NCBI GenBank assembly: GCA_026392115.1
Contig: JAPLCQ010000144.1
Span: 1 to 35,007, forward strand
Source: Armatimonadota bacterium
Lineage (GTDB): Bacteria > Armatimonadota > Chthonomonadetes > Chthonomonadales > CAJBBX01
Length of the DNA: 35,007 bases
Direction of reading: 5' to 3'
Each line of letters begins with the position of its first letter. Position 1 is the stretch's first letter. A model generated the notes under the pieces. The model made no database searches. It had not been told where the DNA came from and saw only the letters and a program-made list of their open reading frames with translations. The position numbers were made by a program, and so were the translations under genes. Below, piece by piece: positions 8,241 through 15,020 of this stretch.

Positions 8241-8934
8241 AGCTGCAACCGGTCCTGGGGCCACCTCCTACCTGGACCGGCCACGCTGGCACGGCGGTCG
8301 CATCGCCCTTGCCGCCTTCACGCTGGTGGAGGTCCTCATCGTTATCGCCATCATCGCGGTGCTTGCGGCCCTGTCGGTCTCGGCGGCATTCCAGGTGCGC
8401 CGGTCCGGGCGCACCGCCGTGTGCTCCTCCAATGCCCGACAGATCGGCATGGCCCTCCGCCTGTACACAAGCGACAACGATGGCGCGTGGCCCTCGACCG
8501 CCGCTTGGCTCTCCGGCCTTCCCAAGTATCTCGGGCGAGACCGCAGGCAACTCGGTTGCCCGGACGCCAGGGCGCCGATCATTGTGGTCGCATGGCCGGC
8601 GGTGCCGGGCTACGCCTACTCCACTGCGCTCACGTCGGGGGTTGTTTCGCTGACCGGCAATACGCCACCCGCGCAGGACGCAGCAGTCCGGTTCCCTGCC
8701 GTAACGGTTGCGCTATGCGATGCGGCAATCGGCGTCTACATCACAGGGGCCCCTGATCCGTACCAGTTTGATCCTAACGCTCGACCACCCGGCCAAGAAG
8801 ATGGTTGGCGGCGACACTCCGGTGGCGCGAACTACGGGTTCTGTGACGGGCACGTGAAGTGGCACCTGCCGGACGCTGTTGGCCACAACCAGCTCGGCAG
8901 CAACGACGGCTCGCGCCCGTCGTTCGCGCTGTGA
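8230..8934 (+). CDS. Type II secretion/type IV pilus-like pseudopilin with H-X9-DG motif
   Basis: A 234-aa pseudopilin. The class III signal gives cleavage after Ala29, before FTLVEVLIVIAIIAVLA, with the usual Glu at mature position 5. Alanine instead of glycine at -1 is unusual but tolerated in some systems. The C-terminal motif is H, nine residues, then DG (HSGGANYGFCDGHVKW), the H-X9-DG signature common in Armatimonadota and Planctomycetota. The GTG at 8230 overlaps the 45-aa ORF; a longer frame from 8002 exists, but its extra residues are not pilin-like. Its stop (8932-8934) overlaps the next ATG by one base. No assembly ATPase, prepilin peptidase or secretin is in the window, so the machinery must be elsewhere. 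Its role (secretion pseudopilus, surface fibre or other) is not known for this family. Confidence 0.82.
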   Translation: MARRAATGPGATSYLDRPRWHGGRIALAAFTLVEVLIVIAIIAVLAALSVSAAFQVRRSGRTAVCSSNARQIGMALRLYTSDNDGAWPSTAAWLSGLPKYLGRDRRQLGCPDARAPIIVVAWPAVPGYAYSTALTSGVVSLTGNTPPAQDAAVRFPAVTVALCDAAIGVYITGAPDPYQFDPNARPPGQEDGWRRHSGGANYGFCDGHVKWHLPDAVGHNQLGSNDGSRPSFAL

Positions 8935-9137
8935 TGTTGCGTTTCGACCGTGTGTTTCCGCGCCGGGCGGTTCTTGGCATGCTGCTCGGCGCGGCGGCGA
9001 CAGCGGCCGTCGGCGTGGTGCTGGTTATAGCCGCTCCGACTTCCGACGGCTGGAGCGCTCAGCCTTCGATGCAACAGCTTGCGATGAGGCGACGGGTGGC
9101 GGCAGCAGACCCTCCGCTGGGGACGGTCATGCCGTGA
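8934..9137 (+). CDS. Small single-pass membrane protein, 67 aa
   Basis: The ATG at 8934 shares its A with the TGA of the pseudopilin, which makes termination-reinitiation likely. The protein has a basic start (MLRFDRVFPRRAVLG), one long hydrophobic segment (GMLLGAAATAAVGVVLVIAAP) and a polar tail of about 35 residues. It lacks a lipobox. No family recognised. It parallels the small proteins that follow the second pseudopilin at 14.4-15.0 kb but does not share their GYY motif. Confidence 0.5.
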   Translation: MLRFDRVFPRRAVLGMLLGAAATAAVGVVLVIAAPTSDGWSAQPSMQQLAMRRRVAAADPPLGTVMP

Positions 9138-13394: not shown

Positions 13395-13423
13395 TGGACA
13401 AGCGGCCCTCTGGAGGCTAGACT
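13395..13423 (+). promoter_or_regulatory. Candidate promoter of the second pseudopilin locus
   Basis: TGGACA (13395-13400), a 17-nt spacer and TAGACT (13418-13423) make a moderate sigma70-type match. It sits directly upstream of the hairpin-rich leader and downstream of the glycosidase stop, where a promoter is expected. Confidence 0.4.
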
Positions 13424-13584: not shown

Positions 13585-14373
13585 ATGTCCCACAAGAGAT
13601 CGGGTTTCACCCTGATCGAACTGCTGGTCGTGATCGCGATCATCGCGATTTTGGCCGCCATCCTCTTCCCGGTCTTCGCGCAGGCCCGTGAGAAGGCCCG
13701 CTCGGTCGTCTGCCTCTCCAACACGAAGCAGATCGGCACCGCGGTCCAGATGTACGCGCAGGACTACGAAGAGTCCATCGTTCCGTGGATCACCTGCGGC
13801 GCCAGCCTCGGCTGCGGCACTCCGACCCAGGCCGAGCGCCTGTGGACCGGCAAGCTCCAGCCCTACATCAAGAACGGCGGCCAGCCCGGTCCCACCGGTA
13901 TGTTCAAGGATCCCGGCTACTCCGACGCCAAGCTCTTCGAAGGCGCCGACAGCGTTGAGTGCGACGGCCCCGGCGGCCTGGCCCCCTACTTCCCGGCCAC
14001 CGCTCGCTACGCCGACTACGGCTTCGCCTGGCATCAGGCCGCCATGGTTGGCTCCGGCACCCAGGTCGACCCCTACTGGCAGTATCCCGGTTCCTACGCC
14101 TACCCGGCCGCCAACGGCCCCGTAGTCCGCTTCCTGGCTGAGATCAAGCGCCCGGCCGAGACCGCCATCGTGACCGACGGTATCACCAACGTCGGCGGCG
14201 GCTACTTCATCATCACCTTCGGTTGCGAGGCCGCGGCGATGCATACCGGCGGCGGCAACCACACGTTCGTCGACGGTCACTCCAAGTGGCTCGCCCGCAA
14301 CTCCGAGCGCTACCTGGCCCAGACCGCGAGCGGCGCGTGGTTCAAGCGCTACTTCACCTTCCCGCTGGAGTAG
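13585..14373 (+). CDS. Major-type pseudopilin with H-X9-DG motif
   Basis: A 262-aa pseudopilin with ATG 8 nt after GAGGAG. The six-residue leader plus Gly7 is followed by [18 protein letters not shown], a textbook class III signal with Glu at mature position 5. The next stretch, [20 protein letters not shown], is the typical Armatimonadota form. The C-terminus carries [12 protein letters not shown], the H-X9-DG motif, and ends in a compact beta-rich domain. Codon use is strongly biased to C-ending codons, suggesting high expression, and unlike the first pseudopilin its processing site is canonical. Two small membrane proteins follow within 10 and 84 bp. The prepilin peptidase and assembly motor are not in the window. 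The exact surface structure built by this family is not established. Confidence 0.92.
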
Positions 14374-14382
14374 GCGTTTCTC

Positions 14383-14604
14383 ATGCCATCGGATATCCGG
14401 CGGAACCTTAGTCTGAGGGCGGCGTTGCCGCTCTGTCTCCTGGCATGCTGCCTGGCCGGTCTGGTCGGTTGCGGCAAGGAGAAGCCCGAGCCAACGGTGC
14501 CCGGCTACTACGAGGGCCCGATCAAGTCGAAGAACGACGTGGCTCCGGGGCCGGGCGGCGCTGAGGCGAAGCCGGGCGCCAAGGGCGCATCTGTCGGCCA
14601 GTAA
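14383..14604 (+). CDS. Small lipoprotein with GYYxGP motif, 73 aa
   Basis: Starts 9 bp after the pseudopilin stop; the ribosome site is poor, so coupling is likely. The N-terminus is a lipoprotein signal with lipobox LVG-Cys (LLACCLAGLVGCGKEK). The mature part is only about 40 residues, Gly-, Pro- and Lys-rich, and contains VPGYYEGPIKSKND. That motif recurs in the next protein (SGYYSGPMRNKNN). Predicted to be anchored by lipid in the inner or outer membrane. No known family; role inferred only from its place beside the pseudopilin. Confidence 0.7.
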   Translation: MPSDIRRNLSLRAALPLCLLACCLAGLVGCGKEKPEPTVPGYYEGPIKSKNDVAPGPGGAEAKPGAKGASVGQ

Positions 14605-14688
14605 GGTCAGAACCGGTTCGTCGTGCGCCGCCATGCACAAGGATGTGCCGGCGGCGCACGGTGGACCCGAAACACGGAACGGAAAGCC

Positions 14689-14955
14689 ATGCGACTGCAG
14701 CGTAACCACTACATCCTGTTGGGAGCCCTGATCGTTCTGGCCGTGGTCCTAGCGATAACCATGCGCCCGGGCAAGAAGGTGGAGGCCGCTCCGTCCCAGT
14801 CGGGGTACTACTCGGGCCCGATGCGCAACAAGAACAACCCCTCGATGTACACCACCGAGGATGGTAAGGTTGTGCCGCCCCCCGCCGGCGCCTCCACCTC
14901 GTCGGAATGGTCCAAGTCGACCGTCACGAAGTCAGGCGCCATCCAGACGAACTAG
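14689..14955 (+). CDS. Small single-pass membrane protein with GYYxGP motif, 88 aa
   Basis: I choose ATG 14689 because the residues before it are Arg-rich and not membrane-like; the ribosome site (GGAAAG) is modest. One transmembrane helix (YILLGALIVLAVVLAIT) follows a short basic N-terminus, giving a periplasmic tail of about 60 residues. The tail contains SGYYSGPMRNKNN, matching the lipoprotein upstream, then a Pro/Ser/Thr-rich end. The pair looks like two differently anchored forms of one peptide module. The gene ends 28 bp before the strong terminator, closing the pseudopilin unit. Confidence 0.65.
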   Translation: MRLQRNHYILLGALIVLAVVLAITMRPGKKVEAAPSQSGYYSGPMRNKNNPSMYTTEDGKVVPPPAGASTSSEWSKSTVTKSGAIQTN

Positions 14956-14983: not shown

Positions 14984-15020
14984 AAGAGGCGCCCGCCATG
15001 TGGAATGGCGGGCGCCTCTT
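14984..15020. terminator. Bidirectional terminator hairpin, 16-bp perfect stem
   Basis: AAGAGGCGCCCGCCAT (14984-14999) pairs perfectly with 15005-15020 around a 5-nt loop. It lies between the convergent pseudopilin unit (plus) and the helicase gene (minus). The A/T ends of the stem provide short T runs in both directions, as in bidirectional intrinsic terminators. Confidence 0.85.

Follow-up and report, generated by a model that had tools for sequence, protein, structure and literature searches.

Small anchored proteins with a shared YYxGPMxxK peptide accompany one clade of H-X9-DG pseudopilins in Armatimonadota

Several phyla carry huge expansions of DUF1559 pseudopilins, and the lipoproteins GspS/PulS, PilF and PilP serve type IV filaments or secretion machines. 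In the excerpts of the literature considered here, pilotins are presented as lipoproteins serving a secretion machine (PMC3276575), 68 DUF1559 paralogues are counted in P. limnophila, two of them essential (PMC10632474), and 79 PulG-type genes are reported in Fimbriimonas (PMC4072686). The same excerpts of the P. limnophila and Fimbriimonas accounts describe neither a small anchored partner nor a YYxGP motif. Lipoproteins can also be involved in the assembly of other machines: LptM, which is tiny (~6 kDa), helps the LPS translocon protein LptD to mature (PMC10567701). Here we analysed a window of 35,007 nucleotides (the whole stretch of DNA considered) from a genome of 5.72 Mb, in which a pseudopilin gene is followed by the genes of two tiny anchored proteins, ORF A and ORF B, carrying a common peptide.

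The pseudopilin cassette and its two small proteins

The pseudopilin is encoded at positions 13585-14373 of the + strand. It has the N-terminal methylation motif (N_methyl, 38.6 bits; cut-off, 21.2), the DUF1559 domain (PF07596, 35.8 bits; cut-off, 23.3) and the H-X9-DG motif (TIGR04294, 21.4 bits; cut-off, 19), all above the Pfam and NCBIfam thresholds, and is accordingly an H-X9-DG pseudopilin. It also bears the marker of its clade, a C-terminal extension reading ARNSERYL followed by 11 further residues. Among solved structures, the only sensible match to the pilin head was the pilin 1ay2, over ~60 residues and with a poor E-value.

ORF A (14383-14604, + strand) starts 9 bases past the pilin stop and encodes a 73-residue lipoprotein, MPSDIRRNLSLRAALPLCLLACCLAGLVGC-GKEKPEPTVPGYYEGPIKSKN..., with the lipobox LVGC. 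The lipobox cysteine, Cys30 as read from the sequence (codon at 14470-14472, + strand), is invariant across 11 aligned A proteins. ORF B (14689-14955, + strand) encodes an 88-residue single-pass (bitopic) membrane protein with an N-terminal helix, MRLQRNHYILLGALIVLAVVLAITMRPGKKVEAAPSQSGYYSGPMRNKNN...; the start at 14623 in the list of open reading frames was rejected as too early, and the ATG at 14689 was retained. The sequences and the alignments of the A and B proteins place the motif at 14503-14535 in A (GYYEGPIKSKN) and at 14803-14835 in B (GYYSGPMRNKN), both on the + strand. Direct reading therefore agrees with the initial annotation, which described an adjacent lipoprotein and single-pass protein following a pseudopilin and sharing GYYxGP[IM][KR]xKN. 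In both proteins the anchor (lipid in A, membrane helix in B) is followed by a spacer that is charged or rich in proline, the motif and a low-complexity tail, which together make up most of the chain.

The pseudopilin, A and B appear to form one transcription unit. Upstream of the cassette lies a promoter-like, sigma-70-like site (TGGACA-17-TAGACT; 13395-13423, + strand), a match to the consensus only, whose -10 region is identical in two congeners. Downstream of B, the putative unit is closed by a GC-rich, terminator-like hairpin (GGCGCCCGCCA...TGGCGGGCGCC; 14988-15016, + strand), which is conserved in two congeners and was not flagged in a terminator scan of the + strand. An inverted repeat (GTGCGCCGCC...GGCGGCGCAC) is found between A and B, at 14623-14659, and is only partly kept in the congeners. 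A riboswitch in the pilin leader was considered and discarded, since the Rfam search of the leader gave no match and 14 related loci gave rRNA genes only.

Both small genes are under purifying selection. Within a genus trio, dN/dS ranged from 0.15 to 0.18 for A, from 0.05 to 0.32 for B and from 0.04 to 0.06 for the pilin, and the values of A and B rule out non-coding or junk ORFs. They constitute an undescribed family, as the initial annotation had supposed. No Pfam family was found for A or B, neither protein had an NCBIfam match above cut-off, no PHROGs family covered them, and an A-profile search of the solved structures in the PDB gave no relevant match. Nor did we find a publication on A or B in the openly searchable literature.

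Conservation of the motif and linkage to one pilin clade

From the window alone, the likeness of the two motifs is suggestive only: the shared 11-mer has 7 identities, a count matched by 101 of 20,000 shuffles (~0.5%). Chance resemblance was rejected because homologues exist across the phylum. When 61 genomes were searched with B, relatives beside which a second copy lies turned up in several families, and the comparison of the A-family and B-family profiles gave an E-value of 1.1e-13 over the motif segment. The window's own genome contains no further small anchored ORF with YYxGP.

In the initial pattern, GYYxGPxxxKN, the leading glycine and the final asparagine vary among these homologues; judging from the alignments, the core should be refined to YYxGPMxxK. 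Among the 72 distinct proteins obtained by reading the loci (39 A and 33 B), methionine is found at +5 in 63 and lysine at +8 in 69, and neither position played a part in selecting the proteins. Position +9 is mostly glycine, serine or asparagine. The invariance of the tyrosines, glycine and proline is partly built in, because the loci were gathered by the pattern YYxG[PA], and the proline is not absolute, since a member found via the profile alone (L100) has YYTGEMKGK. The window's own A carries isoleucine in place of the core methionine. Beyond the motif, the tails are poorly conserved. The distance to the anchor varies little: the lipid cysteine of A precedes the first tyrosine by 11-16 residues (median, 12), and the helix of B ends 12-17 residues before the tyrosine (median, 14). 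The window's pair thus has the features of the proposed YYxGPMxxK family, which are an anchor, a spacer of 11-17 residues, the motif and a position directly after a pseudopilin of the clade. The conserved methionine and lysine, the phylum-wide homologues and the dN/dS values bear out the earlier proposal of a selected peptide placed after diverged anchors. A likeness between the pilin C terminus and the motif (RYYTFSME versus GYYTGPMK) ranked best in a few lineages only and was poor in most.

Profiles of B (built on 12 proteins) and of A (built on 11) were run on 291 Armatimonadota genomes, most genomes surveyed being metagenome assembled, and revealed the A/B family in at least 8 family-level groups. 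The B profile was positive in 51 of the 291 genomes (E-value up to 0.01, the weakest matches not all being members). For A, only strong matches were counted, because many of the weak ones are signal-peptide matches.

The alignment of 21 cassette pilins showed a conserved C-terminal extension past H-X9-DG (NxERYL...YKRYYT), and the profile of this clade had 62 matches at E-values up to 1e-60 in the 291 genomes. All 43 matches of at least 340 bits had A, B or both directly downstream, closely related genomes not counting as independent evidence of linkage because the profile was built from the A/B cassettes themselves. These 43 span families f1, f3, f6, f9, f14, f15 and f29 and substantiate a link of the motif to one H-X9-DG pseudopilin clade across Armatimonadota. 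Below 340 bits the linkage fades: the pilins of G062 (family f25) and G029:C107 have A, and those of G201:C3 (329 bits), G217:C61, G080 and others do not; the pilin at L157 (329 bits to the clade profile) has no partner. On a tree of 98 pilins, made with a quick method, 4 changes suffice to explain the distribution of the YYxGP label, whereas shuffled labels take ~32 on average. Homologues, a pilin-linked context and selection were all observed, whereas the initial annotation had listed a lack of homologues, occurrence in unrelated contexts only or a lack of selection as grounds for giving it up.

The composition of the cassettes varies. Certain loci carry A alone or B alone, the order is pilin, B, A in the four f15 loci that were read, and B is found with no intact pilin nearby at L058 and L113. 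In family f6, loci L105, L118, L124 and L125 have B remnants lacking both the anchor helix and an intact pilin, as if the cassettes had decayed. At L106, the cassette pilin has an in-frame TAG within the gene and the A gene is intact.

The pilin had no match in plasmid records. A pattern search of GTDB contigs gave 21 matches. One locus on a contig titled Verrucomicrobia (L139), with a pilin start upstream, may be misnamed, because its A-like gene closely resembles that of Fimbriimonadaceae locus L119. A pattern match in Phytohabitans looks like chance and was rejected as a member beyond the phylum.

Possible roles of the anchored peptide

We propose, with a probability of about one-half, that a single pseudopilin clade has A and B as its dedicated accessory proteins, acting as anchored docking or assembly peptides. 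The motif stands at a near-fixed height on two types of anchor, is confined to a single pilin clade and comes with no folded domain, all of which suggests an anchored recognition peptide. With its anchor and a spacer of near-constant length, each protein would keep YYxGPMxxK at a defined distance from the membrane. There the peptide might bind the cognate pseudopilin, or a protein assembling that pilin, and in this way retain the filament subunit, pass it on or dock it. In Escherichia coli, lipoproteins whose residue after the cysteine is not aspartate are sorted to the outer membrane. Glycine follows the cysteine in 29 of the 39 A proteins and aspartate in none. By this rule, which may not hold in Armatimonadota, the destination of A would be the outer membrane and B would remain in the inner one, so that the pair would display one peptide from both membranes. 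Such a double display is not general, because of the loci carrying only A or only B.

We modelled the pilin joined to A (window) or to B (L101) with AlphaFold, reading the in-frame stop as glycine, which is a modelling device only and implies no read-through in the cell. The pilin was predicted with confidence; the motif was disordered (pLDDT of ~30 to 60) and undocked in both models, a weak negative given the monomer mode, the shallow alignments, the few fused rows and the inclusion of the signal peptide. These undocked models, the single-gene loci, the L157 pilin with no partner and the B genes with no intact pilin are counted against a docking or assembly role. Of the functional peptide initially supposed, selection and the link to pilins stand, but the two models lent nothing to a role as pilus anchor, chaperone or docking signal.

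A and B might instead be assembly chaperones or quality-control peptides, binding new prepilin transiently in the membrane, where they would protect it or time its cleavage and extraction, and remaining outside the finished structure, in a manner comparable to the help of LptM in LptD maturation; this is possible but doubtful. Their tiny size, lipid anchor, glycine after the cysteine and short conserved segment near the anchor are consistent with such a role, and so are the linkage of the genes to one pilin clade and the precedent of LptM itself, a protein of ~6 kDa with glycine after the cysteine that acts in LptD assembly (PMC10567701). However, it would leave two differently anchored versions unexplained, A and B have no homology to LptM, and the models show no docking.

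Other roles would give the pilin a different part. A and B could be clients moved or presented by the pseudopilus, or processed and released as signals, with the motif as a recognition or cleavage site. This is improbable: a processed peptide, too, would be expected to have a short conserved core and disordered tails of low complexity, but the conserved spacing to two different anchors fits an anchored role better, the tail past the motif is poorly conserved, and the small neighbours of other pseudopilins have no YYxGP motif. It is quite improbable that the pilin linkage reflects mere envelope co-expression and that YYxGP is modified (e.g., on its tyrosines) or touches peptidoglycan. Two tyrosines at a near-constant height and a spacer rich in lysine, glutamate and proline would suit this role, which does not account for the motif being so tightly confined to a single pilin clade and leans on a tyrosine, glycine and proline invariance partly due to the search pattern. 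An anchored docking or assembly peptide is the reading we prefer. The nine-residue core of these conserved partners provides a handle on these questions, as a bait peptide, as a target of point mutations and for predicting the pilin served.

Other pseudopilins and comparison with known systems

The finding is wider than the initial annotation, since it includes single-gene loci and many other pseudopilins with unrelated small anchored neighbours. A small anchored protein lies downstream of 15 of the 35 pilins outside the YYxGP clade, versus 14 of 521 non-pilin genes (Fisher test; P = 1.6e-12), under one strict rule for all genes, with a misfiled YYxGP cassette (L051) removed and a control set that may contain spurious long ORFs, which would depress its rate. 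These neighbours have no YYxGP motif, and the arrangement of a pilin with a small anchored neighbour looks general.

The window's own genome has 24 H-X9-DG matches, and about 10 of its H-X9-DG pilins (L177-L200) are closely followed by an unrelated lipoprotein or single-pass protein of 60-90 residues with a Gly/Pro-rich tail. Elsewhere in the window, another H-X9-DG pseudopilin (motif, 8809-8862) has directly downstream a membrane-anchored ORF of 68 residues with no YYxGP (GTG start at ~8931, end at 9137). At L166, a tandem pair of small lipoproteins downstream of a related pseudopilin shares EEASGATVIxxSPFAxGGPA, and at L171 and L172 lipoproteins with NSxYxxxGNTxADKIGAxRA follow a pilin ending in NPLNYV...YFTMSE. 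These lineages are real but narrow, the latter occurring in 3 of 85 genomes of the family and the former in 1 of 85.

A partner code in Armatimonadota is possible but doubtful. In it, particular pseudopilin clades would each have cognate tiny anchored proteins presenting a clade-specific short peptide close to the membrane (ideally from the inner and the outer one alike), so that dozens of parallel pseudopilins could assemble or dock separately in one cell. Should other pseudopilins come with partners too, to which the enrichment points, one could then study how dozens of similar pilins are kept separate within a cell.

Among known systems, the cassette pilin belongs to the DUF1559/H-X9-DG expansions of Planctomycetes and Armatimonadetes, from which its clade is set apart by the conserved C-terminal extension. 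A shares with the pilotins and the lipoproteins of type IV pili (GspS/PulS, PilF and PilP) that it is a lipoprotein linked to a filament of type IV or a secretion machine. Those lipoproteins, in contrast, contain folded domains and act on secretins or on the alignment complex, whereas A and B adjoin a pseudopilin and gave no domain match; no recognisable folded domain of the pilotin/PilP type was found in either by Pfam or NCBIfam. LptM/YifL (PF13627, NF047847) is also a tiny lipoprotein with glycine after the lipobox cysteine and a short conserved segment by the anchor. By profile, A is not a member of that family, as PF13627 did not match it and NF047847 matched 1 of 11 A members with an E-value of 0.0066, too weak to count. 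LptM serves the assembly of an envelope machine (PMC10567701) and is the closest functional analogue of A and B, which differ from it in their conserved peptide, their linkage to a pseudopilin and the presence of a bitopic twin.
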